Positions 33,852 to 54,535 of a DNA stretch of 64,000 nucleotides are shown here, piece after piece. Below the pieces are notes generated by a model. The model made no database searches, had not been told where the DNA came from, and worked only from the letters and a program-made list of their open reading frames with translations. The first letter of the stretch is position 1. Each line of letters opens with the position of its first letter. Position numbers and translations under genes: made by a program. Origin of the DNA: Klenkia taihuensis (lineage in GTDB: Bacteria; Actinomycetota; Actinomycetes; Mycobacteriales; Geodermatophilaceae); NCBI RefSeq assembly GCF_900112525.1, contig NZ_FOMD01000001.1, positions 496,001 through 560,000 on the forward strand. The letters are read 5' to 3'.

Positions 33852-33856
33852 GGGGC

Positions 33857-34126
33857 ATGTGCCGCAACATCCGCGTCCTGCACAACCTCGCCCCGGCCAC
33901 CACGCCCGACGAGGTCGACGCCGCCGCGCTGCAGTTCGTCCGCAAGGTGAGCGGGTCGGTCAAGCCCTCGCAGGCCAACCAGGCGGCGTTCGACCGCGCG
34001 GTCGCCGAGATCGCGCACGCCACCCGGCACCTGCTGGAGGACCTGGTGACCAGCGCACCGCCGCGCGACCGCGAGGTGCTCGCGGCCCGGGCGCGCGAGA
34101 AGGCCGCCGCCCGCTACGCGAGGTAG
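33857..34126 (+). CDS. DUF2277 family protein
   Basis: This is an 89-residue protein that starts with the family signature MCRNIRVLHNLAPATTPDEV and continues AALQFVRKVSGSVKPSQANQAAFDRAVAEI. The family is widespread in actinobacteria and has no known function. The ATG lies 5 bp after the acyl-CoA dehydrogenase stop, so it is probably co-transcribed. It faces the convergent alcohol dehydrogenase gene, 19 bp away. Confidence 0.88.
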   Translation: MCRNIRVLHNLAPATTPDEVDAAALQFVRKVSGSVKPSQANQAAFDRAVAEIAHATRHLLEDLVTSAPPRDREVLAARAREKAAARYAR

Positions 34127-34145
34127 CGGACGGCGGCCCCGTCCG

Positions 34146-40850: not shown

Positions 40851-40905
40851 ACGCTAGGAGCCGTGGACGGCGCCCGACAGCCGCCCAGCGCACCCGCCTG
40901 ACCGT
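40851..40905 (-). promoter_or_regulatory. Regulon promoter: AraC-type site and -10 of monooxygenase copy 1
   Basis: Read on the minus strand, ACGGTCA (40905-40899) and GCGGCTG (40884-40878) are direct half-sites with 14 bp between, a 21-bp period. TAGCGT (40856-40851) follows 21 bp after the site, fitting an actinobacterial -10. Five other promoters in the cluster have the same arrangement. Confidence 0.65.
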
Positions 40906-40942
40906 TCGCCGCAGACCTCGATACGGCGCCCTGACCTGGGCT

Positions 40943-42202
40943 TCAGGTGCCGGCGACGGGGAGGTCGACGACGGTGGACAGCCCGGGCGCCGGCGCCCCC
41001 GCGTGGCCCATCCGTTCGCGCTTGGTGCGCAGGTAGCGGAGGTTGTGGGGGGTCTCGGCGGTGGGCAGGTGGACCCGGCCGGTGATGGTGAGGCCGTAGC
41101 CCTCCAGGCCGCCGTACTTGGCCGGGTTGTTGGTGATCAGCCGGATCCGGGTGGCGCCCAGGTCGCCGAGGATCTGCGCGCCGACGCCGTAGGAGCGGCT
41201 GTCGACGGGCAGGCCCTGGGCGGTGTTGGCGTCCACGGTGTCCAGGCCCTGCTCCTGCAGGGCGTAGGCGCGGATCTTGTGTCCCAGGCCGATGCCGCGG
41301 CCCTCGTGCCCGCGCAGGTAGACCACCGCCCCGACCCCCTCGGCAGCGATGGTGGCCAGGGCCTGCTCGAGCTGGGCGCCGCAGTCGCAGCGCAGCGAGC
41401 CGAGGATGTCGCCGGTCAGGCACTCCGAGTGCACCCGCACCAGCGCGCCGGCGCCGGTGCGGGAGGCCGCGGCCAGGTCGCCCATGACCAGCGCGAGGTG
41501 CTCGGTGCCGTCGAGGGTGGTGCGGTAGGCCAGGGCCCGGAACTCGCCGAACTCGGTGGGCATCTGTGCCGACCCGACCAGCTCGACGAGGGTCTCGGTG
41601 GCCCGGCGGTGCCGCACCAGGTCCGCGATCGCCAGCACCGGCAGCCCGTGCTCGGCCGCGAAGTCGGTGAGGGAGGCCCCGGCGCGCATGGAGCCGTCCT
41701 CGTCGACGATCTCCCCGATCACCCCGACCCCGGACAACCCGGCCATGGTGGTGAGGTCGACGGCGGCCTCGGTGTGCCCGGCGCGCACCAGCACCCCGCC
41801 CTCCCGGGCGATCAGCGGGAACACGTGCCCGGGACGGCGGAACTCCTCCGCCGGCGCCGAGGTCAGCGAGCGGACGGTGAGCGCCCGGTCGGCCGCCGAC
41901 ACCCCGGTGGAGGTGCCGAGGTGGTCCACGGTCACGGTGAACGCCGTCCCGTGGGCGTCGGTGTTGTCGGTGACCATCAGCGGCAGCTGCAGCTCCCGGG
42001 CCCGCGCGGCGGGCATGGGCGCGCAGACGATGCCGGTGGTGTGCCGCACCACGAAGGCCATCTGCTCCGGGGTGCACAGCTCGGCGGCCACGATGAGGTC
42101 GCCCTCGTTCTCCCGGTCCTCGTCGTCGACCACGACGACCATGCCGCCGGCGGCCAGCGCGGCGACGGCGGTCTGCACGGCCTCGGTCGGGGTGCGCTTC
42201 AC
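40943..42202 (-). CDS. ribBA: Bifunctional DHBP synthase / GTP cyclohydrolase II
   Basis: RibBA makes both precursors of riboflavin, from ribulose 5-phosphate and from GTP. The 419-residue product has an N-terminal DHBP synthase (VVVVDDEDRENEGDLIVAAE, RPGHVFPLIAREGGVLVRAGHTEAAVD) and a C-terminal GTP cyclohydrolase II with the zinc cysteines in SECLTGDILGSLRCDCG and GHEGRGIGLGHKIRAYALQ. Both halves look intact. The GTG overlaps the stop of the flavin reductase gene (GTGA), so it is co-translated with it. Linkage to a flavin reductase and monooxygenases, and not to other rib genes, suggests it is a pathway-dedicated copy that raises FMN supply. Confidence 0.93.
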   Translation of the reverse strand: MKRTPTEAVQTAVAALAAGGMVVVVDDEDRENEGDLIVAAELCTPEQMAFVVRHTTGIVCAPMPAARARELQLPLMVTDNTDAHGTAFTVTVDHLGTSTGVSAADRALTVRSLTSAPAEEFRRPGHVFPLIAREGGVLVRAGHTEAAVDLTTMAGLSGVGVIGEIVDEDGSMRAGASLTDFAAEHGLPVLAIADLVRHRRATETLVELVGSAQMPTEFGEFRALAYRTTLDGTEHLALVMGDLAAASRTGAGALVRVHSECLTGDILGSLRCDCGAQLEQALATIAAEGVGAVVYLRGHEGRGIGLGHKIRAYALQEQGLDTVDANTAQGLPVDSRSYGVGAQILGDLGATRIRLITNNPAKYGGLEGYGLTITGRVHLPTAETPHNLRYLRTKRERMGHAGAPAPGLSTVVDLPVAGT

Positions 42203-42681
42203 GGTGCGACCTCCAGTGCGGCGTGGGTGCCGAACACCCGGGAGTGGTAGGTCAGCGGCTGCCCGTCGACGGTGGCCGCGGCCCGGACGAGGCCGAAGGC
42301 GACGACGTGGTCGCCGCCCTCGACCAGGGACTCCACGTCGCAGGCCAGCCACCCGGGAGCGCCGGGCAGCCGGGGCAGGCCGGAGTCGGGCACCCAGTCG
42401 ACGTCGGCGAACTTGTCCGGGCCCTTGCGGGCGAAGGACAGCGCCAGCGCCGACTGGGTGGAGCCGAGCACGTTCACGCCGAACCGGCCGGTGCCCCGGA
42501 CCAGGGCCAGCAGGTCCGAGCCGCGGTCGAGGGAGACCAGCACCATCGGCGGGTCCATCGACAGCGACGCGAACGCCGACACCGTCGTCCCGTGCGGGAC
42601 GCCGTCGGCCGACACCGCGGTGATGACCGAGACCGGGGTGGCGACCCCGGCCATCACCTCGCGGAACGCCTCGGCCAGCAC
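42199..42681 (-). CDS. Flavin reductase (two-component monooxygenase partner)
   Basis: This 160-residue protein has the split-barrel flavin-reductase fold: FREVMAGVATPVSVITAVSADGVPHGTTVSAFASLSMDPPMVLVSLDRGSDLL and GRFGVNVLGSTQSALALSFA. Such enzymes reduce FMN or FAD with NAD(P)H and hand it to luciferase-like monooxygenases. The GTG start lies 3 bp past the aldehyde dehydrogenase stop and its end overlaps ribBA by 4 bp. It is the likely reductant source for the two monooxygenases of the cluster. Confidence 0.92.
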   Translation of the reverse strand: MLAEAFREVMAGVATPVSVITAVSADGVPHGTTVSAFASLSMDPPMVLVSLDRGSDLLALVRGTGRFGVNVLGSTQSALALSFARKGPDKFADVDWVPDSGLPRLPGAPGWLACDVESLVEGGDHVVAFGLVRAAATVDGQPLTYHSRVFGTHAALEVAP

Positions 42682-42684
42682 GGC

Positions 42685-44175
42685 TCAGCCCAGCTGGAAC
42701 GGGTCGCGGGTCCCGCCGGTCAGCTCGATGAACACCGACTTGTTCTCGGTGTACTCGTTGACCGCGTCCACGCCGTTCTCCCGGCCGATGCCGGAGTTGC
42801 CGAACCCGCCGAAGGGCATGTTGGGCGCGACCACGCGGTAGGCGTTCACCCACACCGTGCCGGCCCGCAGCTTCGCGGCCACCCGGTGCGCCCGGTGCAC
42901 GTCCTTGGTCCAGACCGCCCCGGCCAGGCCGTAGGGGGTGTCGTTGGCCAGCTTCAGCGCCTCGTCCTCGTCGGTGAAGGTGTAGGCGGCGAGCACCGGC
43001 CCGAACACCTCCTCGCGGACGATGGTGTTCTCCGGCGTCACGTTGGTGACCACGGTCGGCTTGACGAACAGCCCGCCCAGCTCGGCGGCCGGCTCGCCGC
43101 CGCAGGCGAAGGTGGCGCCCTCGGCCGCGGCGCCCTCGAGGTAGCCGAGCACCTTCTCGTACTGGGGCCGGTTGGCGACCGGGCCCATCTCGGTGTCGGC
43201 GTCGTTGGGGTCGCCCAGCACGATCTCGTTCGCCCGGGCGGCGATCTTCTCCACCAGGGCGTCGTGCACGTCGGCGTGCACGATCAGCCGCGAGCCGGCC
43301 ATGCAGGTCTGCCCGGTGGCCGCGAAGACACCCGCCACCAGGCCGTTGGCGGCGGCGTCGAGGTCGGCGTCGGGGAAGACGATCTGGGGGCTCTTGCCGC
43401 CGAGCTCCAGGGTGACCCGGTTGAGGTTGCTCACCGCGGCCCGGGCGACGGCGGCACCGGTGGCGGTGGAGCCGGTGAACGCGACCTTGTCCACGCCCTC
43501 GTGGGAAGCGAGCGCCTCACCGGTGGAGCGGTCCCAGCCGGTGACCACGTTGAGCACGCCCGCGGGCAGCCCGGCCTCGTGCAGCACCTGGGCGAAGGCG
43601 ACGGTGGAGGCGGGGGAGTGCTCCGAGGGCTTGACCACGCAGGTGTTGCCGGCGGCCAGCAGCGGGGCCAGCTTGAAGGTCAGCAGCAGCAGCGGGGAGT
43701 TCCACGGCGTGATGGCGCCGACGACGCCGACCGGCTCGCGCACGGTGTAGCCGAAGTAGTTCGGGTTGACCGGCGGGACGGTGCGGCCCTCGATCTTGTC
43801 GGCCAGCCCGGCGAAGTAGTAGTACCAGTTCGGCAGCCCCTTGAGCTGGCCGAGCATCTCGCGCATCAGCTTGCCGGAGTCGTTGACCTCGAGCTGGGCC
43901 AGCCGCTCGGCGTTGGCCAGGATCGCGTCGCCGCACTTGCGCATGATCGCGCTGCGCTGGAAGCCGGTCATCTGGCCCCACTCGCCCTCGAAGGCGGTGC
44001 GGGCCGAGGCCACGGCCTCGTCGACGTCCTCGGGGGCGCCGTCGGCGAGCACCGCCCAGGCCTGGCCGGTGTAGGGGTTCTGCGACTCGAAGGTCTTGCC
44101 CGAGCGGGCGTCGACGGTCTTGCCGCCGATGAACAGCCCGAAGGACTCGAGCTCGGTGGACGTCGCGGTCGTCAT
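42685..44175 (-). CDS. Aldehyde dehydrogenase (NAD(P)-dependent)
   Basis: The 496-residue enzyme oxidises an aldehyde to the acid. It has the Rossmann cofactor domain, VVGAITPWNSPLL, KPSEHSP, FTGSTATGAAVA, the general base in LELGGKSPQIV and the catalytic Cys291 in GQTCMAGSRL, plus EEVFGPVLAAY. It is closest in pattern to betaine/gamma-semialdehyde dehydrogenases, but the specific substrate is not readable. The ATG follows AAGGAG. It leads the operon aldehyde dehydrogenase, flavin reductase, ribBA. Its promoter has the AraC-type direct repeat. Confidence 0.93.
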   Translation of the reverse strand: MTTATSTELESFGLFIGGKTVDARSGKTFESQNPYTGQAWAVLADGAPEDVDEAVASARTAFEGEWGQMTGFQRSAIMRKCGDAILANAERLAQLEVNDSGKLMREMLGQLKGLPNWYYYFAGLADKIEGRTVPPVNPNYFGYTVREPVGVVGAITPWNSPLLLLTFKLAPLLAAGNTCVVKPSEHSPASTVAFAQVLHEAGLPAGVLNVVTGWDRSTGEALASHEGVDKVAFTGSTATGAAVARAAVSNLNRVTLELGGKSPQIVFPDADLDAAANGLVAGVFAATGQTCMAGSRLIVHADVHDALVEKIAARANEIVLGDPNDADTEMGPVANRPQYEKVLGYLEGAAAEGATFACGGEPAAELGGLFVKPTVVTNVTPENTIVREEVFGPVLAAYTFTDEDEALKLANDTPYGLAGAVWTKDVHRAHRVAAKLRAGTVWVNAYRVVAPNMPFGGFGNSGIGRENGVDAVNEYTENKSVFIELTGGTRDPFQLG

Positions 44176-44211
44176 CGACTGCTCCTTCTCGGTGTAGTGC
44201 CGGTCACGGCA

Positions 44212-44267
44212 ACGGTAGGGAGACGTGCCGGTCGGCGACCATCCGTTGTCCGCCGACCTGTGTCCGC
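44212..44267 (-). promoter_or_regulatory. Regulon promoter: AraC-type site and -10 of the aldehyde dehydrogenase operon
   Basis: On the minus strand GCGGACA (44267-44261) and ACGGATG (44246-44240) are direct half-sites 21 bp apart. TACCGT (44217-44212) follows 22 bp later as a likely -10. About 70 bp here align almost base for base with the CoA-transferase promoter at 46963-47017. Confidence 0.7.
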
Positions 44268-44273
44268 GCAGCG

Positions 44274-44807
44274 CTAGACCTGCGGTTGCAGTGCGCGGAT
44301 GGCCGCCGACCCCTGGACGGCACGGGTCAGGTCGACCAGCGCGCGCCCGTGGGAGGCGGCCAGCTCGGCGGCGTCGGCGGTGAGCTCGGTGCCGTCGAAG
44401 TGCGGGTGGGTGAGCACCAGGCCGGGGCTGAGCACCTGGCAGCCGTAGAACCCGGCGAGCAGGCTGCGCAGCGAGTCCTGTGCGAGGAAGTGCTCGGCGG
44501 CGTTGCACGTCATCACGACCGCGGCCGTCGTGCCGGCCAGGTGGGCCTTGGTCTCGGTTGTGTACCGGCCGCGCTCGGCGGACTCGAACAGGCTGCGGAG
44601 CAGCGCGGAGAACGACGCCCGGTAGGTGGGGCTGCCGAAGACGACGGCGTCGGCGGCCTCCACCGCGTCGAGCACGGTGGCGATGTCGGTGTCGGCCAGG
44701 CTGAGCCGATCGGTCTCCGCACCCTCGCAGCCGGCCAGCACGCCGGCGACGCCGGCGTCGGTGCGGCCCCCGACCGAGGGGCTGCCGACGACGCCCAGCA
44801 CCTTCAC
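44274..44807 (-). CDS. NAD(P)H-dependent FMN reductase (SsuE-like)
   Basis: The 177-residue protein has the flavodoxin-like fold of SsuE/MsuE reductases: VKVLGVVGSPSVGGRTDAGV binds the FMN phosphate, and ADAVVFGSPTYRASFSALLRSLF is typical. It would supply reduced FMN to a monooxygenase. Its GTG overlaps the stop of the HMG-CoA-lyase-like gene by 4 bp. The cluster thus has two unrelated flavin reductases, one in each operon, matching the two monooxygenases. Confidence 0.85.
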   Translation of the reverse strand: MKVLGVVGSPSVGGRTDAGVAGVLAGCEGAETDRLSLADTDIATVLDAVEAADAVVFGSPTYRASFSALLRSLFESAERGRYTTETKAHLAGTTAAVVMTCNAAEHFLAQDSLRSLLAGFYGCQVLSPGLVLTHPHFDGTELTADAAELAASHGRALVDLTRAVQGSAAIRALQPQV

Positions 44808-45724
44808 GACCGGTACTCCCCGCGCGGCTGGTTCGCCCCGCCCGCCCGGTACAGCGAGCTCGGCAACGGGTGCTCGACGGCCCGCTCGGTGACGGCGGCC
44901 GCGGCCAGCACCCGGTCCAGGTCGATGCCGGTCTCCACGCCGGAGTCGGCGAGCCAGTAGACGAGCTCCTCGGTGGCGATGTTGCCGCTGGCCCCGGGGG
45001 CGAACGGGCACCCACCGAGCCCGCCGACCGACGCGTCCAGCTGGGTCACCCCCGCCTGGACGGCGGCCAGCGCGTTGGCCTGGCCGGTGCCGCGGGTGTC
45101 GTGGAAGTGCGCGCCCAGCGGCAGACCCGGTGCGGCCGCGCGGACGGCATCCAGCAGGTCGACGGTGCGCCGCGGGGTGACCGTGCCGATCGTGTCGCCC
45201 AGGCACAGCTGGTCGGCACCGTTCGCCACCGCGGTGGCGACGACCTCCAGGGTGCGGGACGGATCGGTCCGTCCGTCGAACGGGCAGTCCCACGCGGTGG
45301 CGATGATGACCTCGAGCGACCCGCCGGCGGCGTGCGAGACCTCGGCGATGGCGCCGATGGCGTCGGCGGCCTCGGTGGTGGGCTTGCCGGCGTTGGCCCG
45401 GGAGTGCGAGTCGGCGGCGCTGACCACGTACTCCAGGTGCGGGATCCCGGCGTCCACCGCGCGCTGCGCGCCGCGCAGGTTGGCCACCAGCGCGGAGAAG
45501 TGCACACCCTCGTACCGGCCCAGCGCCGCGGCGACCTGGTCGGCGTCGGCCAGGGCGGGCACCGCCTTCGGGGACACGAAGGAGGTCACCTCGATGCGCT
45601 GCACGCCGGTGGCGACGAGGGCCTCCAGCATCTCGAGCTTGGCCTCCAGCGGGACCGGGTCCTCCAGCTGCAGGCCGTCGCGCATCCCGACCTCGCGGAC
45701 GTCGACCCTCGGTGGCAGCTGCAC
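44804..45724 (-). CDS. Hydroxymethylglutaryl-CoA lyase family enzyme
   Basis: This 306-residue TIM-barrel lyase cleaves a 3-hydroxyacyl-CoA; the classical substrate is HMG-CoA, giving acetyl-CoA and acetoacetate. It has VDVREVGMRDGLQ, the metal-binding HFHDTRGTGQAN, and GGLGGCPFAPGASGN with the conserved active-site Cys. These signatures are strong for true HMG-CoA lyases. The GTG directly follows the CoA-transferase stop, so the two enzymes probably act in sequence on one acid. No leucine-degradation carboxylase is nearby. Confidence 0.9.
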   Translation of the reverse strand: MQLPPRVDVREVGMRDGLQLEDPVPLEAKLEMLEALVATGVQRIEVTSFVSPKAVPALADADQVAAALGRYEGVHFSALVANLRGAQRAVDAGIPHLEYVVSAADSHSRANAGKPTTEAADAIGAIAEVSHAAGGSLEVIIATAWDCPFDGRTDPSRTLEVVATAVANGADQLCLGDTIGTVTPRRTVDLLDAVRAAAPGLPLGAHFHDTRGTGQANALAAVQAGVTQLDASVGGLGGCPFAPGASGNIATEELVYWLADSGVETGIDLDRVLAAAAVTERAVEHPLPSSLYRAGGANQPRGEYRS

Positions 45725-46927
45725 TCAGATCACCCCTTCGGCGGCCAGTGCCGCCACGTCGGACTCGGAGAGGCCCAGCAGTTCCCCGTAGACCTCGGTG
45801 TTGTGCCACCCCGGCCTCGGCGGGCCCGCCCACTTCACCGTCCCCGGTGTCGCCGACAGCTGCGGCACCACACCGGGGCCGAGCACGTCGGCGTCCACGC
45901 CGAGGTCGTGGTGGTCCACCAGCATGCCCCGGGCCAGGAACTGCTCGTCCACCGCGACGTCGGCGACCGTGGCCACCGGGCCGACGACGACGCCGGCGCC
46001 GCTGCAGCGGGCCACCACCTCCTCGGGCGGGAGCTGCACCGCCCAGGCGCCGATGAGGTCGTCGAGCTCGTCCTGGTGCCGGGCGCGGGCGGTGTGCGTG
46101 GCGTAGCGCTCGTCGTCGGCGAGCTCGGGCCGCCCCATCGCGGTGCACAGCCGGCGGAACAGGGTGTCCTGGTTGGCCGCGATGATGACGAAGGTGCCGT
46201 CGGCGGTCCGGTAGCTGTTGGACGGCGCGATCGCGTCCAGCCGGGTGCCGCTGGGCTGGCGCACCAACCCGGCGCGGGAGTAGTCCGGGACCATCGACTC
46301 GGTGACGGCCAGGCAGGAGTCGGTCAGCGCGGCGTCGACCACCTGGCCGCGGCCGGTGCGGGCCCGGGCGACCAGCGCGGTGAGGATGCCCTGGCAGGCG
46401 AACATGCCGGCCAGCGAGTCGCCGATCGACAGCGCCATCCGCACCGGCGGCTGGCCCGGGAAGCCGGTGACGAACCGCAGGCCGGCGCGGGCCTCGGCGA
46501 CGCTGGCGTAGCCGGGCTGGGCGGCCATCGGCCCGGTCTGCCCGTAGCCCGACACCCGGGCGAGCACCAGGCCGGGGTTGGCCGCCGACAACCGGTCGTA
46601 GCCCAGGCCCCAGCGCTCGAGCGTGCCGGGCCGGAAGCTCTCCACCACCACGTCGGCGTCGGCGGCGAGGGCCAGGAAGAGCTCCTGGCCCCGCGCGCTC
46701 CGCAGGTCCAGGGTGATGCAGCGCTTGTTGCGGGCGTGCACGGTCCAGAAGAAGCCGCGGCCGTCCTCGTGGGCCTGGCCCCAGGTGCGCAGCGGGTCGG
46801 GCCGGTCGGGGGCCTCGACCTTGATCACGTCGGCACCCTGGTCACCCAGGAGACGCCCCGCGAACGGCCCGGCGATCAGGGTGCCGATCTCCAGCACCCG
46901 GATGCCCTCCAGCGCTCCGGCGGTCAT
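45725..46927 (-). CDS. CaiB/BaiF-family CoA-transferase
   Basis: The 400-residue class III CoA-transferase moves CoA between acids. It has LEGIRVLEIGTLIAGPFAGRLLGDQGADVIKVE at the start, the family motif NKRCITLDLRSARGQELF and VVVESFRPGTLERWGLGY. The ATG at 46927 follows GAGGAG. It heads the operon CoA-transferase, HMG-CoA-lyase-like, FMN reductase. The promoter carries the AraC-type repeat. Working with the lyase, it could activate a hydroxy-dicarboxylic acid; this is inferred from order only. Confidence 0.9.
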   Translation of the reverse strand: MTAGALEGIRVLEIGTLIAGPFAGRLLGDQGADVIKVEAPDRPDPLRTWGQAHEDGRGFFWTVHARNKRCITLDLRSARGQELFLALAADADVVVESFRPGTLERWGLGYDRLSAANPGLVLARVSGYGQTGPMAAQPGYASVAEARAGLRFVTGFPGQPPVRMALSIGDSLAGMFACQGILTALVARARTGRGQVVDAALTDSCLAVTESMVPDYSRAGLVRQPSGTRLDAIAPSNSYRTADGTFVIIAANQDTLFRRLCTAMGRPELADDERYATHTARARHQDELDDLIGAWAVQLPPEEVVARCSGAGVVVGPVATVADVAVDEQFLARGMLVDHHDLGVDADVLGPGVVPQLSATPGTVKWAGPPRPGWHNTEVYGELLGLSESDVAALAAEGVI

Positions 46928-46962
46928 CGAGCTCCTCACGTCGTCGTGCGGGGACGGGGCCG

Positions 46963-47017
46963 ACGGTAGGGAGGCCGCCGGGCCCGGACCATCCGCGCCC
47001 GGCGGACCTGCATCCGC
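46963..47017 (-). promoter_or_regulatory. Regulon promoter: AraC-type site and -10 of the CoA-transferase operon
   Basis: On the minus strand GCGGATG (47017-47011) and GCGGATG (46996-46990) are identical direct half-sites 21 bp apart. TACCGT (46968-46963) follows after 21 bp. This is the clearest copy of the repeat. The divergent DinB gene may share it. Confidence 0.75.
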
Positions 47018-47118
47018 AGAGCGCACGCCTGCGGAGGCCCTCTGGACCCCACATGCGTTGCGCCCTACCTTTCCCCGTGACGCCGGGCACCGCAGCCCGG
47101 CCAGACGACGGGAGCACC

Positions 47119-47640
47119 ATGTCCGACATCGTCGAGACGCAGACGCGGATCGCCGACCGCACCCTGACCGCCGTCGAGGAGCTGCTGCGCAGCATCCCGG
47201 ACGGCGACCTGCACGTGGCCGACCCGGGCGGCGGCTGGACCGGCGCCACCGTGGTCAGCCACATGACCCTGGCCGGGCTGCTCTGGGTGGCCGACGTCGC
47301 CCGGCTGCAGGCCGACCCCGACCTGGACTTCTTCTTCCGGGAGGAGATCGGTCACGACACCATCGGGGCCATCCCGCCCACCGCAGCCGAGGCCGCGGAC
47401 AAGATCGCCTCGCTGCGCCGCACGATGGTCTCGACGATGCCCAACCACACCCCGGAGATCCTCGAGCGCTCGGTGGAGATCACCACGCTGGGCCGGATGA
47501 CGGTGGCCGAGTGGCTGCCGATCATCGTCGGCCACGTCGTGCACCACCGCGACCAGCTGCACGCCGTCCTCGCCTCCCGCGGCAAGCTGCCCGAGCGGTT
47601 CGTCGTCCCCGAGGGGTACACCGGCGAGGACGCCGCGTGA
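47119..47640 (+). CDS. DinB/maleylpyruvate-isomerase-like metal-binding protein
   Basis: The 173-residue product has the four-helix DinB fold with its metal-binding His residues in TVVSHMTLAGLLW and IIVGHVVHHRDQLHAVL. In actinobacteria, many members use mycothiol or bacillithiol as co-substrate for isomerase or transferase reactions. The ATG at 47119 follows GGGAG. It overlaps the next dehydrogenase by 4 bp, so the two probably act together. A detoxification or thiol-transfer step in the flavin pathway is possible but unproven. Confidence 0.8.
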   Translation: MSDIVETQTRIADRTLTAVEELLRSIPDGDLHVADPGGGWTGATVVSHMTLAGLLWVADVARLQADPDLDFFFREEIGHDTIGAIPPTAAEAADKIASLRRTMVSTMPNHTPEILERSVEITTLGRMTVAEWLPIIVGHVVHHRDQLHAVLASRGKLPERFVVPEGYTGEDAA

Positions 47641-48656
47641 AGGCCGTCGTCCTCACCGGGGTCGGGCAGGTCGAGGTCCAGGAGCGCCCGGACCCCACCG
47701 CCGACCCGCTGCACGTGGTGGTGCACGTCGACGTCGCCTCGCTGTGCGGCACCGACGCCCACCAGTTCGAGGGCCGCATCGACTCGCCCTTCCCCCGGGT
47801 GCCCGGGCACGACTTCGCCGGCACCGTGGTCTCGGTCGGCGAGGGCGTCGACGAGTCGCTGGTGGGCCAGCAGTTCGCGGTCAAGCCCTCGCTGCCGTGC
47901 GGGAACTGCGCGGCCTGCGTCGACGGGCCCTCGCTGGACTGCCCGAACAAGAAGCTCATCGGGCTGTGGAGCGACGGCTGCTTCGCCGAGCTGGTCGCCG
48001 TCCCGCGGGTGAACCTGGTGCCCATCCCCGACGGCGTGCCGATCTGGGGCGCGGCGCTGCTGGAGCCCTTCGCCGTCGCGCTGAACTGCATCGACCGGCT
48101 GCAGATCAAGCTGGGCGACTCGGTGCTGGTGCTCGGCCAGGGCCCGATCGGGCTGGCCGTGGCGCGGTTCGCCGCGCTCTCCGGGGCCGGCCGGCTGACC
48201 GTGACCGATGTCCGCGAGGAGGTCTTCGAGGTCTCCCGGGCCTTCGGGGCGACCGACTGCCTGGACAGCCGCACCGACGGCCTGGTCGACCGGGTGCTGG
48301 AGATGCACGGCGGGCGCGGTGCCGACATCGTCGTGGAGACCTCGGGCGCGCCCGCGGCGTCGGCGTCGGTGATCGACCTGGTGCGCAAGGAGGGCAAGGC
48401 CAGCTTCATCGGCTACGCCAACGACCTCCCGGGCATCCCCGTCGTCCCGATGATGCTCAAGACCGCGACCGTGTTCGGGGTCGGCGGCAACGGCGGGCGC
48501 GGGCAGTACGAGCGCTCGCTGGAGCTCATCCGCGCCGGCCGGGTCGACCTGTCCCCGCTGGTCACGCACCGGTTCTCCCTCGACGAGGCCCCGGAGGCCT
48601 TCGAGGTCGCCAGCACCAAGCGGGACGGCGCCATCAAGGTCCTGCTCGAGCCCTGA
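47637..48656 (+). CDS. Zinc-dependent alcohol dehydrogenase
   Basis: This 339-residue medium-chain dehydrogenase has VASLCGTDAHQFEG and GHDFAGTVVSVG for the catalytic zinc, CGNCAACVDGPSLDC for the structural zinc, and VLGQGPIGLAVARFAA for the cofactor. The GTG lies in the preceding stop codon (GTGA). It could produce the aldehyde used by the dehydrogenase encoded at 42685, but the substrate is unknown. It is followed by a large hairpin before the convergent SCO6745-family gene. Confidence 0.88.
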   Translation: MKAVVLTGVGQVEVQERPDPTADPLHVVVHVDVASLCGTDAHQFEGRIDSPFPRVPGHDFAGTVVSVGEGVDESLVGQQFAVKPSLPCGNCAACVDGPSLDCPNKKLIGLWSDGCFAELVAVPRVNLVPIPDGVPIWGAALLEPFAVALNCIDRLQIKLGDSVLVLGQGPIGLAVARFAALSGAGRLTVTDVREEVFEVSRAFGATDCLDSRTDGLVDRVLEMHGGRGADIVVETSGAPAASASVIDLVRKEGKASFIGYANDLPGIPVVPMMLKTATVFGVGGNGGRGQYERSLELIRAGRVDLSPLVTHRFSLDEAPEAFEVASTKRDGAIKVLLEP

Positions 48657-48669
48657 CGCCCCCGCTCCA

Positions 48670-48736
48670 CCAGGCATGGGAGCCCATGCACCCGCTCACG
48701 AGGCCCGTGGCCGGGTGCATGGGCTCCTCTGCCTGG
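48670..48736. terminator. Large bidirectional hairpin
   Basis: A 16-bp perfect stem (GGAGCCCATGCACCCG at 48679-48694 with its complement at 48712-48727) is extended by an outer 7-bp stem (CCAGGCA at 48670-48676, TGCCTGG at 48730-48736). The loop is 17 bases. It separates two convergent genes. Confidence 0.8.
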
Positions 48737-48741
48737 GTCGG

Positions 48742-49656
48742 CTACCCGCTGACGCGCTTGTAGGGGTCGGACGGCGCCGCGCCCGCGGCGACGATGCGGT
48801 TGCTCCACCCGTCCAGCTGCGCGGTCAGCGACGCGATGTCGTCGCCGATCGGGGCCAGCACCCGGGTCATCGCCTCGTCGGTGACCTGCTCGATGCGGTC
48901 GCGCTCGGCCCGGCCGGTGGCGGTCAGCTCGCCGTCGGCCAGCCAGCCGCGCTCGCGCAGGTCGGCGTCGGCGGCGTCCATGACCTCCGGGGCCCAGGCG
49001 CGGGTGCCGGCGTAGGCGCGGGGCTCCCAGCCGATCCAGTACTCGGTCACCAGGTTCATCTGCACGCCCGAGAGCCCCGCGGCGACGTTGGCCGCCTGGT
49101 GGGTGTCGCCGCGGTACTCGCGCAGGATGTTCAGCGCGTGCCACAGCTGGCCCCACGGGTCGGTCGGCCACTCCAGCGAGGCCAGGCCCGCCACCAGCGG
49201 CCGGCCGGTGACGTCGGCGACGGCGACGTCGGTGGCCCGGCGCAGCTGCGCGACGGCGGTCTCGACCTCGCCGGTCGGGACGTCGCCGAGCACCTCGTGC
49301 AGCGAGTCCACCGCGCCCTTCTCCCGGGCGGCCAGCACGTCCTCGCGCGAGGCGATCCCGCGGGCCTGGTCGTACAGGGAGGCGATCAGCCCGGGCTCGA
49401 ACACCCCGAACGCGGCGACGACGACCGGCGGGGTGGGCTCGCCCATGGGCGCGGTGCGGCCCCAGACGTAGCCGGTCAGGAACTCCAGGCCGAGGGCCTC
49501 CATCGCGGCGTAGGCCGGCTTGCCCCAGAAGCCGATGGTGGCCAGCGGCTCGGCGGCGTCCCGCAGTGACCGGGCGGCGCCGGTGGGGATGCGCGGGGCG
49601 GGCCGGCCGGCGGAGGGCTCGGCGAGGAAGGCGGCGGACAGTTCGTCGTAGTCCAC
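48742..49656 (-). CDS. SCO6745-family protein (SalK-type)
   Basis: The 304-residue protein matches a Streptomyces family often annotated as SalK or as a helix-turn-helix protein, in segments such as AAYAAMEALGLEFLTGYVWGR and GQLWHALNILREYRGDTH. The function is unknown; a C-terminal winged-helix-like portion (DLRERGWLADGELTATGRAERDRIE) suggests nucleic-acid or ligand binding. The GTG at 49656 follows GGGAG. It lies 17 bp after the AraC regulator stop, so the two share a transcript and perhaps a regulatory function. Confidence 0.7.
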   Translation of the reverse strand: MDYDELSAAFLAEPSAGRPAPRIPTGAARSLRDAAEPLATIGFWGKPAYAAMEALGLEFLTGYVWGRTAPMGEPTPPVVVAAFGVFEPGLIASLYDQARGIASREDVLAAREKGAVDSLHEVLGDVPTGEVETAVAQLRRATDVAVADVTGRPLVAGLASLEWPTDPWGQLWHALNILREYRGDTHQAANVAAGLSGVQMNLVTEYWIGWEPRAYAGTRAWAPEVMDAADADLRERGWLADGELTATGRAERDRIEQVTDEAMTRVLAPIGDDIASLTAQLDGWSNRIVAAGAAPSDPYKRVSG

Positions 49657-49673
49657 GAGTGTGGTCTCCCGGG

Positions 49674-50651
49674 TCAGTGGCGGAGGGTGGCGGACGGGAG
49701 CTCGCCGAAGCGGTCCCGGTACTGCTGGGCGAAGCGGCTCTGGTGGAAGAAGCCCCAGCGCACGGCGACGTCGGTGACCCGCACCGTGCTGGGGTCGGCG
49801 TGCACGAGCTCGGTGCGCACCCGGTCCAGCCGGACCCGGCGCAGGTAGCTCATCGGGGACTCGCCGTACTGCTGCTGGAAGGCCGCGTGCAGGGTGCGCA
49901 CGCTCATGCAGCCCACCCGCGCCAGCTCCTGCGGGGTGAGCGCCTCGTCGGCGTGCTCCTCGAGGTAGGCGACCACCGGGGCGAGCCGGCCGTGCTCGAG
50001 GGCCCGGGCGGGGGCGGCGAGGGCGTCGGAGAACTGGTGCCGGCCGGCGTGCAGCAGCTGGGTCATCACGAACGCCTCGAGCTGCTCGCGGGCCAGCGGC
50101 ATCTCCGCGAGCCCACCGGGGCGGTCGAGCTCGCGGGCCAGGAACTCCACCGAGTTCAGCAGCGACTGCCCGGCCGGGTCGGTGAGGTCCAGGCCGAAGT
50201 CGAAGTCGACCACCTCGGCCACCGACCGGCCGATCAGGTCGCCGAGGTGGGACTCCAGGCTGGCACGGGGGATCTTCAGGATCAGCTGCTCGGCGTCGGG
50301 GGTCCAGCGCACGGTGTTGCGCTGCTTGGGGTTGAGCACCGCCCCCGAGGTGCGGGCCTCGGTGCGGGTGCGGGCGCCGTCGGACCTGTCGGCGTCGGTG
50401 GAGCCCGCGGTGGTGAGGTTGACGTGGTAGCAGTCCTCGGTGGGTGGCATGACCAGCTCGGTCTGCGCACCGTAGGTCAGGTACCCGAGGGTGAAGTTCC
50501 GGTCCGTGACGGCGTTGAGGTGCATCGCGACCTGGTCCCCGCGTGCGGTCAGGTCGTGCTGGAGGTAGACCCGGGTGACGGCGTCCTGCGCCTCCTCGAG
50601 GCTGCGCGTGCCGACCACCGGGAACCGCGACAGGGGCTGGTCCACGGTCAC
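49674..50651 (-). CDS. AraC-family transcriptional regulator, proposed master of the cluster
   Basis: The 325-residue regulator has an N-terminal ligand-sensing part of AraC-binding-like type (about 1-200) and a C-terminal double helix-turn-helix (about 220-325: LTPQELARVGCMSVRTLHAAFQQQYGESPMSYLRRVRLDRV, then VTDVAVRWGFFHQSRFAQQYRDRFGELPS). The GTG at 50651 abuts GGAGG; the in-frame GTG at 50645 has better spacing. AraC proteins bind direct half-sites about 21 bp apart, exactly the spacing found in six promoters here, including its own. It is divergent from the E1 gene. Confidence 0.9.
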   Translation of the reverse strand: MTVDQPLSRFPVVGTRSLEEAQDAVTRVYLQHDLTARGDQVAMHLNAVTDRNFTLGYLTYGAQTELVMPPTEDCYHVNLTTAGSTDADRSDGARTRTEARTSGAVLNPKQRNTVRWTPDAEQLILKIPRASLESHLGDLIGRSVAEVVDFDFGLDLTDPAGQSLLNSVEFLARELDRPGGLAEMPLAREQLEAFVMTQLLHAGRHQFSDALAAPARALEHGRLAPVVAYLEEHADEALTPQELARVGCMSVRTLHAAFQQQYGESPMSYLRRVRLDRVRTELVHADPSTVRVTDVAVRWGFFHQSRFAQQYRDRFGELPSATLRH

Positions 50652-50705
50652 CTCCGCACGGACGACGTCGTCTCGGATGTGGCACGGGCCACAGCTGGCG
50701 CCCGC

Positions 50706-50760
50706 AATCTAGGTCGTGCACCACCGGAACGCCAGCCGCTGGGCGCGCGGCGGTGTCCGC
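50706..50760 (-). promoter_or_regulatory. Regulon promoter: AraC-type site and -10 of the regulator's own gene
   Basis: On the minus strand GCGGACA (50760-50754) and GCGGCTG (50739-50733) are direct half-sites 21 bp apart. TAGATT (50711-50706) follows after 21 bp. This predicts autoregulation. Confidence 0.65.
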
Positions 50761-50772
50761 GCAGCGCACGGG

Positions 50773-50827
50773 GCGGATGCCGGGCTGCAGCATGCGGCTG
50801 GCCGGGGGCCCGGACGGTCGGTCAAGC
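50773..50827 (+). promoter_or_regulatory. Regulon promoter: AraC-type site of the E1 gene
   Basis: GCGGATG (50773-50779) and GCGGCTG (50794-50800) are direct half-sites 21 bp apart. The -10 position (about 50822-50827) is a poor match. If spacing is as in the other copies, transcription would begin at or next to the ATG at 50835, giving a leaderless message, which fits the lack of a good ribosome site. Confidence 0.6.
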
Positions 50828-50834
50828 TGGGTGC

Positions 50835-53159
50835 ATGACCGCCACCCTCGCCAACGCTGCCGGCACCAGCACCGACGACGCCGCCCTCCGCGAGGTCGAG
50901 CAGCGGGTGCTCTGGCTGGCCAGCGCGATCGTGGACCACGCCAACCGGGTGCGGCCCAACCCGACCGGGCTCAAGGTGGGCGGCCACCAGGCGTCGTCGG
51001 CGTCGATCACCACGATCATGACCGCGCTGTGGCTGGAGACCCTGGGCCCGGAGGACCGGGTGTCGGTGAAGCCGCACGCCTCGCCGGTGCTGCACGCCCT
51101 GGAGTACCTGCTCGGCCAGCTGCCGGCGTCGGCGCTGACCACGTTGCGTGAGTTCGGCGGCCTGCAGTCCTACCCCTCGCGGCTCAAGGACCCGGTGCCC
51201 GCCGACTACTCCACCGGCTCGGTCGGCATCGGGGCCACCGCGCCGATCTGGGGCGCGATCGCCCGCCGCTACGTCAACACCCAGTTCGGCACGGGCGGCG
51301 CGGGCCGGCAGTGGTCGCTGGTCGGCGACGCCGAGCTCGACGAGGGCGCGGTGTGGGAGGCCGTGGTCGACCCGATGGTGGCCGAGCTGGGCGAGGTCTG
51401 CTGGGTCGTCGACCTCAACCGGCAGTCCCTGGACCGCGTCGTCCCGACCTTCGGCGCGACCCGGCTGCAGGGCATGTTCGCCGCGGCCGGCTGGCAGGTG
51501 CTCACCGTGAAGTACGGCGCCCTGCTCGAGGAGCTCTACACCCGCGAGGGCGGCCCCGAGCTGCGCGACCGGATCGACGAGATGACCAACCCCGAGTACC
51601 AGCGGATGCTGCGCCGCTCGGCCGGCGAGCTGCGCGAGCACCTGCCCGGGGACGGCGCCGGGGCCGCCGCGATCGCCGGCCTGATCGCCGGGGTCGCCGA
51701 CGACGACCTGGTCGCCGCGGTGCGCAACCTCGGCGGGCACGACCTGGCAGCGCTGCGGACGGCGTTCGCCCAGATCGACGACACCCGCCCCACCGTGGTG
51801 CTGGCGTACACGCTCAAGGGCTACGGCCTGGCCATCGAGGGCCACCCGCAGAACCACTCCGCGCTGCTCACCGAGGCCCAGCTGCACGAGCTGGCCGACC
51901 GGGTGGGCGTGGACCCGGCCGACCCGTGGCAGCGCTTCGACCCGGCATCGGGCCCCGGCCGGCTGCTGGCCGCGGCCGCCGACCGGCTGCACCGCACCCC
52001 GCACCAGGGCGCACCGGCGCCGTCGGTCCCCGGTGACCTGGGCCGGACGCCGAACGGCACCGGCACCACCCAGGCCGCGCTGGGCCGCACGCTGCTGGAC
52101 CTGAACCGGGCCGCGCCCGAGGCCGGCGCCCGCATCGTGACCGTCAGCCCCGACGTCTCGAGCTCCACCAACCTGGGCGGCTGGGTGAACAAGGTCGGCG
52201 TGTGGGCCGCCGAGGACCGGCGCGACTGGTTCTCCGACGACCCCGAGACGATCCTGCACTGGCGGGAGCGGCCCAGCGGCCAGCACGTGGAGCTGGGCAT
52301 CGCCGAGGTCAACCTGGTCGGGCTGATGGGTGAGTTGGGTTCCACGTGGAACCGGTGGGAGCAGCCGCTGCTGCCGATCGGCGTCATGTACGACCCGTTC
52401 GTCTCCCGGGCGCTGGAGCCGTGGAGCTTCGGGGTCTACGCCGGGGGCCAGTCGATCCTGGTCGGGACGCCGTCGGGGGTGACGCTGGCCGGCGAGGGTG
52501 GCGCGCACCAGTCGATCACCACGCCGTCCATCGGGCTGGAGCAGCCCGGCGTCGTCACCTACGAACCCGCCTTCGCCCTGGACACCGAGTGGTGCCTGCT
52601 GGCCTCGCTGGGTCGGCTGGGCAAGCCGGGCGGGACCAGCGCCTACCTGCGGCTGTCGACCCGGCCGGTGGACCAGAGCCTGGCCGCGGTGCCGGAGGAC
52701 CCGGCGGCCCGCGAGCGCCGCCGTCGTCAGGTGGTGGCCGGGGCGTACGCGCTGCGGCGGGTGCCCGACCCCGCGGTCACCGTGGTGACGATGGGTGCGC
52801 TCGTCCCCGAGGGGATCCAGGCCGCCGACCGGCTCACCGGCCTGGGCCACCCCGCCGACGTCGTGGTGCTCACCTCGCCGGGGCTGCTGTTCCGCGCGCT
52901 GCAGGCCCGCCGCGGCCAGGACGACGCCCCCACCGCGGTGCTCGACCAGGCCTTCCCCGCCGACCGGGCCGCACCGATGGTCACCGTGCTCGACGGGCAC
53001 CCGCACACGCTGGCGTTCCTCGCGGGCATCCACCGGGTCCCGGCCGTGCACCTGGGCGTGACGCGGTTCGGGCAGTCCGGCGACCTGGCCAGCGTCTACC
53101 GGCACCACGGCATCGACACCGACTCGGTGGTCGCCGCCGCCCTCGACCTCCTCGACTGA
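50835..53159 (+). CDS. AceE-like thiamine-diphosphate E1 (transketolase superfamily)
   Basis: This 774-residue product aligns with homodimeric pyruvate dehydrogenase E1: HASPVLHALEYLLG, the ThDP motif GDAELDEGAVWEAV (from residue 164) through VVDLNRQSLDRVVP, then GEGGAHQSITTPSIGLEQPGV in the pyrimidine domain and a C-terminal transketolase domain. It is shorter than AceE (about 900 residues). The third residue of the GDG motif is Ala. No E2 or E3 gene is near. It may act on another 2-oxo acid, use the housekeeping E2, or work as a lyase. It is divergent from the AraC gene and shares the 21-bp repeat. Confidence 0.82.
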   Translation: MTATLANAAGTSTDDAALREVEQRVLWLASAIVDHANRVRPNPTGLKVGGHQASSASITTIMTALWLETLGPEDRVSVKPHASPVLHALEYLLGQLPASALTTLREFGGLQSYPSRLKDPVPADYSTGSVGIGATAPIWGAIARRYVNTQFGTGGAGRQWSLVGDAELDEGAVWEAVVDPMVAELGEVCWVVDLNRQSLDRVVPTFGATRLQGMFAAAGWQVLTVKYGALLEELYTREGGPELRDRIDEMTNPEYQRMLRRSAGELREHLPGDGAGAAAIAGLIAGVADDDLVAAVRNLGGHDLAALRTAFAQIDDTRPTVVLAYTLKGYGLAIEGHPQNHSALLTEAQLHELADRVGVDPADPWQRFDPASGPGRLLAAAADRLHRTPHQGAPAPSVPGDLGRTPNGTGTTQAALGRTLLDLNRAAPEAGARIVTVSPDVSSSTNLGGWVNKVGVWAAEDRRDWFSDDPETILHWRERPSGQHVELGIAEVNLVGLMGELGSTWNRWEQPLLPIGVMYDPFVSRALEPWSFGVYAGGQSILVGTPSGVTLAGEGGAHQSITTPSIGLEQPGVVTYEPAFALDTEWCLLASLGRLGKPGGTSAYLRLSTRPVDQSLAAVPEDPAARERRRRQVVAGAYALRRVPDPAVTVVTMGALVPEGIQAADRLTGLGHPADVVVLTSPGLLFRALQARRGQDDAPTAVLDQAFPADRAAPMVTVLDGHPHTLAFLAGIHRVPAVHLGVTRFGQSGDLASVYRHHGIDTDSVVAAALDLLD

Positions 53160-53178
53160 GGCCCCCGCGCGGCCAGCG

Positions 53179-53260
53179 TTGATCAGGGGAGTTGATCGAA
53201 GTCCGTCCTCCTGCACGAAATCTGGTGCAGGAGGACGAACCTTGATCAGGGAGGTTGATC
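53179..53260. terminator. Hairpin flanked by 19-bp GATC-rich direct repeats
   Basis: GTCCTCCTGCAC (53205-53216) and GTGCAGGAGGAC (53225-53236) form a perfect stem around GAAATCTG, with one more pair outside. TTGATCAGGGGAGTTGATC (53179-53197) and TTGATCAGGGAGGTTGATC (53242-53260) flank it as near-identical direct repeats. It lies between convergent genes and probably ends both transcripts. Confidence 0.7.
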
Positions 53261-53280
53261 CACGCTGCGGCCGCGGGAGG

Positions 53281-54420
53281 TCAGTGGCGCAGGCCGTTCT
53301 TCTTCATGATCGGCATGACCTCGGCGCCGAACTCCTCGAGCTCCTTGGCGTAGTCGTGGAAGCCGAAGATGGCCCCGCCCATGCCGGCCTCGCTCAGCTC
53401 GTGGAACTGCTCGGCGACCTGCTCCGGCGTGCCGACCAGGTTGGGTCCGCCCCAGCCGGCGATGAAGCGCTCCTGGAACTGCTTGATCTGGCTGCCGAAG
53501 CTCTGCGACTGGATGCCCAGGACGTCCATGATGATGTTGGCGCCCGGCCAGTCGCCGGCGTCGATGATCGCCTGCTGCGCGGCCTTGGCCTCCTTCTCGG
53601 TCTCCCGGCAGATGACCAGGCAGTAGGTCCAGACGTCGATGTCGCGCTCGTACTCGTCGTTGGCCATCTGCTTGATGCCCTTGATGTAGGCCGGGGCCTC
53701 CTCGGTGGGCAGCGCGATGAGGTTGATGTCGACGTTCTTCGCGGAGAAGCGCTGGCCGGCGGGTGAGGCGCCGGCGTTCAGCAGCGCCGGACGGGGTGCC
53801 TGCACGGGCTTGGGGAAGGCCTTGGCGCCGTGGGAGGTGAAGTACGTCCCGTCGACGTCGAAGGTTCCCTCCTCGTTCCACAGCTTCATGGCGAAGTCCA
53901 GCCACTCCTGGCCGAACGCGTACCGCTCGTCGTGCTCCAGCTGCTTCTTGCCGAACAGCTCCATCTCGGGCGTGAACCAGCCCATCACCACGTTCATCCC
54001 GAACCGGCCGTTGGAGATGTGGTCGATGGTGGCGGCCATCTTGGCGCCGACGATGGGGTGGATCGTGGGCAGGTGGGTGGTGGTGAAGATGCCGATGTTC
54101 TCCGTCGCCTGCGCCAGGCCCGCGGCCCAGGTGTAGGTCTCGAAGCAGACGCCGTTGAAGTCGGTGTTGCCGCCGAAGCCGGTCCAGCGGCCCACCGGGA
54201 CCATCGCCTCCATGCCCAGCCGGTCCGCCGTCCGGGCGATCTCGAGCTGCTGGTCCCAGGTGACCCGGAAGCCGGTGGGCGCGTCGCTCATGATCACGCC
54301 ACCGGAGCAGTTGGACGAGAACACCCCCAGCTTCAGCTTCTGGTCGTTGAAGACCGGATTCTCGGTGACCGGCTTGTAGTGGCCGAGCAGTCCGTCGGCC
54401 TGGTGCATGGGCAGCGTCAT
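53281..54420 (-). CDS. LLM-class flavin-dependent monooxygenase, RutA/SfnG-like (copy 2)
   Basis: This 379-residue paralogue of the gene at 39589 keeps the same landmarks: LKLGVFSSNCSGGVIMSDA, ADRLGMEAMVPVGRWTGFGGNTDFNGVCFETYTWAAGLAQATENI split over the barrel, TIDHISNGRFGMNVVMGW and PALLNAGASPAGQRFSAKN. The ATG at 54420 has GGAGG upstream. The two copies, about 13 kb apart and both behind the AraC-type repeat, may take two related substrates, form a hetero-oligomer or act in sequence. The N-terminal extension TLPMHQADGLLGHYKPVTENPVFNDQ is shared in part with copy 1. Confidence 0.88.
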   Translation of the reverse strand: MTLPMHQADGLLGHYKPVTENPVFNDQKLKLGVFSSNCSGGVIMSDAPTGFRVTWDQQLEIARTADRLGMEAMVPVGRWTGFGGNTDFNGVCFETYTWAAGLAQATENIGIFTTTHLPTIHPIVGAKMAATIDHISNGRFGMNVVMGWFTPEMELFGKKQLEHDERYAFGQEWLDFAMKLWNEEGTFDVDGTYFTSHGAKAFPKPVQAPRPALLNAGASPAGQRFSAKNVDINLIALPTEEAPAYIKGIKQMANDEYERDIDVWTYCLVICRETEKEAKAAQQAIIDAGDWPGANIIMDVLGIQSQSFGSQIKQFQERFIAGWGGPNLVGTPEQVAEQFHELSEAGMGGAIFGFHDYAKELEEFGAEVMPIMKKNGLRH

Positions 54421-54495
54421 CGATGACCTCCGCATCAGGGCGGCCGCGTCTCGACCGCCGCGGCCCGATGGTGTCGACGGTCACACCTGCCGCAC

Positions 54496-54523
54496 CATCC
54501 GTTGCGCGCGACCCGGTGGCCGC
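54496..54523 (-). promoter_or_regulatory. Regulon promoter: AraC-type site of monooxygenase copy 2
   Basis: On the minus strand GCGGCCA (54523-54517) and ACGGATG (54502-54496) are direct half-sites 21 bp apart. No TANNNT hexamer lies at the expected -10. The site is directly downstream of the convergently placed end of the ilvA coding region. Confidence 0.6.
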
Positions 54524-54535
54524 CGCGCGCAGGGT

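Follow-up and report, generated by a model that had tools for sequence, protein, structure and literature searches.

A predicted XylS-like AraC regulon in a flavin-monooxygenase gene cluster of Klenkia taihuensis

The gene cluster and its six tandem sites

The window analysed here is a 64,000-nucleotide stretch of the 4.32-Mb genome of Klenkia taihuensis (assembly GCF_900112525.1, contig NZ_FOMD01000001.1, positions 496,001 to 560,000 of the forward strand). Between 39.6 and 54.4 kb it carries a cluster of genes for flavin-dependent monooxygenases and associated enzymes, in the middle of which lies a gene encoding an AraC/XylS-family protein. Six promoters of the cluster share a tandem direct repeat, and these repeats are predicted to be the sites of that protein. 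No paper describing this cluster was found in the open-licence literature.

The genes were assigned by means of Pfam and NCBIfam. On the minus-strand left arm the order, in ascending coordinates, was LLM1, RibBA, FlRed, ALDH, FMNred, HMGL and CoAT. Rightward of CoAT were a DinB-like gene and a zinc alcohol dehydrogenase gene on the plus strand, followed by a SCO6745-like gene, AraC, PDHE1-like, LLM2 and then IlvA, which has no site.

39589..40788, minus strand: LLM1, flavin monooxygenase of the luciferase-like type (Bac_luciferase; closest NCBIfam families SfnG and RutA)
40943..42205, minus strand: RibBA, bifunctional enzyme for riboflavin precursors (the genome has three matches, this one included)
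42199..42681, minus strand: FlRed, flavin reductase
42685..44175, minus strand: ALDH, aldehyde dehydrogenase
44274..44810, minus strand: FMNred, NADPH-dependent FMN reductase-like protein
44804..45724, minus strand: HMGL, hydroxymethylglutaryl-CoA lyase subfamily (NF004283, over cut-off)
45725..46930, minus strand: CoAT, class III CoA-transferase
47119..48656, plus strand: DinB-superfamily protein and zinc alcohol dehydrogenase (ADH); no site found
48742..49656, minus strand: SCO6745-family (HTH_67) protein, 17 bp downstream of AraC; no site of its own
49674..50651, minus strand: AraC/XylS-family regulator (AraC_binding_2 and HTH_18)
50835..53159, plus strand: PDHE1-like, a relative of transketolase and homodimeric pyruvate dehydrogenase E1 among the thiamine-diphosphate enzymes
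53281..54420, minus strand: LLM2, second luciferase-like flavin monooxygenase

Both monooxygenases scored under the curated cut-offs of their nearest families and are members of neither (LLM1, 186 bits against 383 for SfnG and 171 against 498 for RutA; LLM2, 184 and 166 bits, respectively). Judged by the enzyme families, the cluster suggests a pathway in which a flavin-dependent oxidation would yield an aldehyde; this would be oxidised to an acid, after which would come activation with CoA and the action of a lyase. The substrate was not named by the plasmid relatives of LLM1, AraC and PDHE1-like, by solved structures or by the open-licence literature; a pyridine-type pathway, considered as a candidate, was dropped because no evidence for it was found. 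ALDH-FlRed-RibBA and CoAT-HMGL-FMNred appear to form operons. The SCO6745-family gene is probably co-transcribed with AraC, and could be reached by the regulator only by that route.

An earlier note, made from the DNA sequence of this region, had reported six RCGGNYR-N14-RCGG(A/C)TG pairs directed at the genes that they precede, with a TANNNT hexamer 21-22 bp after four of them. All six pairs were recovered as exact matches to RCGGNYR-N14-RCGGMTG at the positions and on the strands reported, each aimed at its own gene, with the start of the core 117 (LLM1), 92 (ALDH), 87 (CoAT), 109 (AraC), 62 (PDHE1-like) and 103 bp (LLM2) before the start codon. The four TANNNT hexamers were found at 21, 22, 21 and 21 bp; the other two sites are followed at 22 bp by weak hexamers. 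The scores and ranks given below are those of the position weight matrix (PWM) and the genome model described in the next section.

40878..40913, minus strand: LLM1 tandem site (upstream A box and downstream B box, twice; core 40878-40905); PWM 17.2, window rank 6, genome rank 7
40851..40856, minus strand: LLM1 putative -10 TAGCGT, 21 bp from the site
44240..44275, minus strand: ALDH-FlRed-RibBA tandem site; PWM 27.6, window rank 1, genome rank 2
44212..44217, minus strand: ALDH putative -10 TACCGT, 22 bp from the site
46990..47025, minus strand: CoAT-HMGL-FMNred tandem site; PWM 27.0, window rank 2, genome rank 1
46963..46968, minus strand: CoAT putative -10 TACCGT, 21 bp from the site
50733..50768, minus strand: AraC tandem site (predicted autoregulation); PWM 20.3, window rank 5, genome rank 4
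50706..50711, minus strand: AraC putative -10 TAGATT, 21 bp from the site
50765..50800, plus strand: PDHE1-like tandem site, back to back with the AraC site; PWM 23.9, window rank 3, genome rank 5
50823..50828, plus strand: PDHE1-like weak putative -10 CAAGCT, 22 bp from the site, with 6 nt between it and the ATG at 50835
54496..54531, minus strand: LLM2 tandem site; PWM 23.4, window rank 4, genome rank 3
54468..54473, minus strand: LLM2, CACCAT (not TANNNT) at the -10 position, 22 bp from the site

Judged by this spacing, the PDHE1-like transcript is likely to be leaderless. The same layout (TGCACT, 6 nt, GTG) was observed at the riboflavin kinase gene of genome G104, a member of the genus Modestobacter. 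The ALDH and CoAT promoters, described previously as alike over about 70 bp, do resemble each other in and around the half-sites; that extent was too generous, however, since 44 of 90 ungapped positions were identical and the -10 boxes are offset by 1 bp.

The full element, its specificity and its conservation

The short core pattern alone is not specific and cannot define a regulon. It matched the window eight times (0.60 expected from dinucleotide shuffles; none of 100 shuffles reached eight), the two further matches being at 16197(+) and 29582(-). Genome-wide there were 55 matches, 49 of them outside the six-site set, and a reversed control pattern gave 130/131. What is unusual is that six matches lie within 13.7 kb, all aimed at start codons, where the outside rate predicts about 0.16 (Poisson P ~2e-8).

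The core covers half of each half-site, and lacks the upstream NGCR box. In the window, all 12 half-sites have their GC nine bases ahead of the GG, and the 21-bp period is kept in all six sites, so that the full element consists of two NGCR-N6-GGNYR half-sites whose starts are 21 bp apart. An independent model of this element was built from a scan of named genomes, which gave 25 loci, 22 of them annotated (L050-L071) and 17 used. Excluded from training were L050, L051 and L066, which are Geodermatophilaceae (for independence of the model), L070, whose sites are identical to those of L069, and L056, where AraC lies at a contig edge. Training sites were allowed no more than a single departure from the core and needed a TANNNT hexamer at 20-23 bp; all 17 of the Pseudonocardia, Nakamurella and Mycolicibacterium loci used contributed, giving 38 sites (ALDH 12, AraC 11, CoAT 6, RibBA 5, FlRed 3 and LLM1 1). 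Outside the selecting core, the conserved columns among these 38 were G-7 (36), C-6 (38), C-4 (36), G14 (33) and C15 (38); the upstream-box GC is thus conserved in both half-sites, which defines the half-site as NGCR-N6-GGNYR. In every one of the 38 sites the distance to the -10 hexamer was 21 or 22 bp, though 20-23 bp had been permitted.

The 38-site alignment was converted into a sequence-only model for genome searches and into a PWM for the window and upstream regions. In the Klenkia genome the model ranked the CoAT, ALDH, LLM2, AraC and PDHE1-like sites 1 to 5 (E-values of 3.6e-4 to 5.3e-3) and the LLM1 promoter 7 (E 0.031), where the match lies one 21-bp repeat further downstream. The six sites took the first six places in the window, and the next best match scored 8.1. 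The earlier note had asked for a genome scan of the spaced pair: the bare pattern did not single out the cluster, whereas the full-length model did. A wider regulon outside the cluster was considered and rejected, the remaining matches among the first ten each being inside an open reading frame (ORF) of more than 150 codons.

C5:746834: off-cluster match, rank 6
C7:246528: off-cluster match, rank 8
C10:477627: off-cluster match, rank 9
C10:638414: off-cluster match, rank 10

In GC-rich DNA long ORFs abound on every strand, and the ORF-internal position of these four matches is therefore weak evidence.

To assess conservation, 196 genomes, including that of K. taihuensis, were searched for AraC orthologues. 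Orthologues of 75-98% identity were present in eight other genomes of the order; the nearest among the named genomes were from Klenkia (97, 96 and 94% identity), a genus of the Geodermatophilaceae. Klenkia brasiliensis DSM 44526 has the cluster too (L048). Upstream sites were counted in the window and these eight genomes at PWM >9, a level that none of 3200 Markov-resampled 300-bp upstream regions reached (highest score, 8.9). Sites preceded AraC orthologues in 9/9 cases, CoAT in 9/9, PDHE1-like in 7/8, ALDH in 6/8, LLM1 in 6/7 (the seventh has an exact core) and LLM2 in 5/7 (G104 included). RibBA (1/7) and HMGL (1/8) had a site in G133 alone, and none was found upstream of FlRed (0/8), FMNred (0/8), DinB (0/7), ADH (0/8, counting a 34% second copy in G000), SCO6745 (0/8), IlvA (0/7) or ADHthr (0/3). 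These counts omit four AraC paralogues of 47% identity (PWM 10.4, 12.4, 10.3 and 16.2) and a 48% CoAT copy in G133 (PWM -7.5).

The sites were retained where gene order differed. In G133, which is from another family, RibBA is on the strand opposite LLM1, ALDH and AraC, and PDHE1-like, LLM2, DinB and SCO6745 were not found in the 35 kb examined; sites nevertheless precede LLM1, ALDH, CoAT, RibBA, an HMGL homologue and AraC (the last by the matrix). In G005 and G008 ALDH begins about 40 bp after FMNred and its site is absent, as expected if ALDH had joined the upstream operon, whereas in G007 and G003, with 2.2-2.5 kb between FMNred and ALDH, the ALDH site scores 12.8 and 15.2. Fourteen loci were compared and, within the stretches examined, no genes but AraC, ALDH and LLM1 had a homologue in each of them. 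G069 has a reduced cluster: its AraC match is limited to residues 223-324, no site above 6 was found before its ALDH or PDHE1-like gene, and an 18.3 match with a good proximal half only precedes SCO6745.

AraC matches limited to the DNA-binding domain were seen in G069 (L088 10921-11226, 78%) and G106 (L089 9963-10271, 81%). In G069 about 300 bp separate this match from the PDHE1-like start, which is too short for a sensor domain.

A presence/absence scan of 26 genomes (E<=0.02) gave 5, 3, 3, 5, 4, 3, 0 and 1 matches in the orthologue-bearing G001, G003, G005, G007, G008, G074, G101 and G133, of which 5, 3, 3, 4, 2, 2, 0 and 1, respectively, were at the cluster. Same-genus genomes without an orthologue had 0 (G002), 1 (G004) and 0 (G006) matches; the partial genome G104, in which only the paralogue was found, had one, at the cluster; and of the remaining 14 genomes five (G018, G023, G113, G118 and G137) had one or two. 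This comparison, which covers the regulator gene and the sites, is one of co-occurrence, not of binding. Seven of the 11 off-cluster matches in other genomes were inspected (L080-L086), and none had TANNNT at 18-25 bp; the other four were two each in G113 and G008.

The predicted AraC-family switch and its alternatives

The protein encoded at 49674-50651 has both domains of the family: an AraC-type C-terminal helix-turn-helix (HTH_18, 9.2e-22, 77.6 bits against a cut-off of 33.6) and an N-terminal AraC_binding_2 domain (PF14525, 7.7e-33, residues 21-200). In a one-sequence BLASTP search it was 27% identical to XylS (75/275, E 5e-31). Its best NCBIfam family was AndR (NF041686, anthranilate dioxygenase regulator, residues 15-324), of which it is not a member, since it scored 135.2 bits against a cut-off of 350; in the excerpted text of PMC1360089, no half-site of the TGCA-N6-GGNTA kind is reported for the anthranilate promoter.

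The closest known layout is that of XylS at the Pm promoter of Pseudomonas putida plasmid pWW0 (XylS is reviewed in PMC5481539). In pWW0, two TGCA-N6-GGNTA half-sites 21 bp apart precede the benzoate dioxygenase genes, and TAGGCT starts 21 bp after the second. The Klenkia sites likewise have two direct half-sites, boxes 6 bp apart, a 21-bp period and a fixed distance from the proximal half-site to the -10 position, and the regulator is of the same family. Pm has the period of about 21 bp that the earlier note had ascribed to AraC-type activators. Within 31 kb of pWW0 the actinobacterial matrix gave its highest score, 12.9, to Pm; the runner-up had 3.9. The differences are that Pm has the exact half-sites where Klenkia has NGCR-N6-GGNYR, that Pm stands alone while there are six Klenkia promoters, including that of the regulator, and that the Pm target is a benzoate dioxygenase operon rather than monooxygenases of the LLM type and their flavin supply.

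A second known system is CphR of Rhodococcus sp. YH-5B, described in the sections of PMC6205950 consulted here as an AraC-type activator of the chlorophenol monooxygenase genes cphA2A1. Its site spans -35 to -69 and contains TGCA-N6-GGNTA twice in imperfect form; the proximal copy shares two bases with the -35 region, and the half-sites were examined there through promoter mutations. CphR is likewise actinobacterial, and its A boxes, CGCG and TGCG, fit NGCR as in Klenkia; it differs in having one target operon and repeats that are, as printed (-49, -69), 20 bp apart (PMC6205950).

On this evidence we consider it highly probable that the six repeats are sites of the AraC/XylS-family protein, which would activate the cluster promoters together. 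The most likely targets are LLM1, ALDH-FlRed-RibBA, CoAT-HMGL-FMNred, PDHE1-like, LLM2 and AraC itself, and one AraC-family switch very probably controls the flavin-monooxygenase cluster. Such a regulon had been proposed in the earlier note, partly because the AraC gene lies within the set and has its own site. The proposal stands, and is stronger than stated there, given the sites before orthologues elsewhere, the ranks of the independent model, the XylS/Pm layout and the co-travelling of AraC. The further suggestion that 39.6-54.4 kb is one regulated system is supported for the six promoters, with the qualification that the DinB-ADH pair has no site.

Several observations weigh against this reading. 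The training sites were selected by the core of the earlier note, which makes the core columns partly circular, and an exact-core site of L062 (at 9807) is without TANNNT. So are two of the six window sites (PDHE1-like and LLM2), DinB-ADH, in mid-cluster, has no site, and none of the 12 window half-sites is an exact TGCA-N6-GGNTA, for which reason the sites are called XylS-like in layout and not XylS sites. The LLM1 site is the weakest, its genome match is shifted by one repeat and is outranked by the ORF-internal contig 5 match (E 0.025), and full scoring in that search covered only 150 of the 14394 first-look candidates. Elsewhere, the PDHE1-like gene of G101 lacks a site, the match counts of the orthologue-bearing G101 and G133 were 0 and 1, and those of the orthologue-less G004 and five other genomes were 1-2.

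It is improbable that the sites, while real and co-regulated, are bound by another regulator, such as the SCO6745-family protein or a paralogue of AraC encoded elsewhere in the genome. Co-occurrence alone cannot tell members of one cluster apart. Moreover, where the 47% AraC paralogue stands beside LLM2 (G005, G008, G074 and G104), its gene too is preceded by a site of this kind, which departs from the core at one position or none (PWM 10.3-16.2), so specificities may overlap. SCO6745, however, was matched in only three of the 22 loci, all Geodermatophilaceae (L050, L051 and L066), while the sites are present in the others. The Klenkia genome has six AraC matches, the best at 8.8e-217 and the next listed at 3.8e-22, and the XylS layout of the site agrees with a protein that is itself a XylS relative.

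Repression by the AraC protein is marginally less probable again: a site adjoining the -35 region could equally block polymerase, but the layout is that of XylS and of CphR, both of them activators, and the two weak -10 boxes would plausibly need one. That GC-rich DNA and a degenerate pattern yielded the pairs by chance, with six picked out in the earlier note, can practically be dismissed: the many genome-wide matches of the core and its reversed form favour it, but the shuffles, the first six window ranks, genome ranks 1-5 and 7 in 4.3 Mb from a model trained outside the family, and the sites in all 17 other loci used led us to reject it.

If the AraC protein is the activator, a pathway compound would bind its AraC_binding_2 domain, presumably releasing two protein subunits, which would occupy each site. 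The proximal subunit would adjoin or overlap the -35 region, the -10 box following at 21-22 bp, and RNA polymerase would be recruited in the manner of XylS at Pm. LLM1 and LLM2 would thereby be switched on jointly with the flavin-making and flavin-reducing enzymes (RibBA and flavin reductase), and with them ALDH, the CoA-transferase, the HMG-CoA-lyase-type, FMN-reductase-type and pyruvate-dehydrogenase-E1-type enzymes and the regulator's own gene. The predicted regulon is new; its mechanism is of a known type.

The mapped sites make the cluster a defined predicted regulon and its pathway approachable, since a compound that induced one promoter would point to the substrate. They also place the textbook proteobacterial XylS/Pm layout in Klenkia, Modestobacter, Pseudonocardia, Nakamurella and Mycolicibacterium, and the matrix can be used to look for regulons of this kind in a GC-rich genome, for which the short pattern is unsuited.

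Flavin supply and the LLM2 promoter

One predicted switch would tie flavin biosynthesis to a flavin-consuming pathway. In Klenkia, RibBA and flavin reductase would belong to the regulon by way of the ALDH operon; elsewhere, a site directly precedes RibBA in five Pseudonocardia loci and in G133, and FlRed accounts for three of the 38 training sites. In G104 (L045, C37) a gene with a Flavokinase domain (PF01687) at 1121-1543 follows PDHE1-like and has a site scoring 23.7.

A second FlRed-RibBA pair is present on contig 6 of the Klenkia genome (G000; L087 11343-13060; RibBA part, 33330-34565 of the contig), with 88% DNA identity over 1686 bp to window positions 41000-42667. No site above 7 was found in the 20 kb examined, and a gene nearby looks by eye like one for an LLM enzyme; the pair is perhaps a portable flavin-supply cassette.

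The 47% AraC paralogue is divergent from LLM2 in four genomes (G074, G005, G008 and G104), and was not seen in G000, G001 or G007.

L066 5037-5972: AraC paralogue
G005:C1:1704859-1705794: AraC paralogue
G008:C229:11021-11956: AraC paralogue
L045 2938-3894: AraC paralogue

The LLM2 site scored 23.4, 24.7 and 23.4 without the paralogue (G000, G001 and G007) and 9.9, 4.0, 10.6 and 4.0 with it (G074, G005, G104 and G008). These data are compatible with a tentative history, which we regard as rather less than an even prospect, in which a XylS-like regulator controls a monooxygenase pathway and its own FMN supply, kept recruiting genes, and took the LLM2 promoter from a lost paralogous regulator. 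Since G000, G001 and G007 are close relatives, the take-over of LLM2 may have been one event.

Two neighbourhoods were recorded in addition. In G003 (L035 11881-14730) a gene resembling, by eye, that of a nitrilase lies between ADH and SCO6745, with another regulator-like gene beside it. On plasmid 2 of Variovorax sp. RA8 (L077 8965-18939) a relative of LLM1 (49.6%) lies near RibBA, flavin reductase and GntR-family genes.

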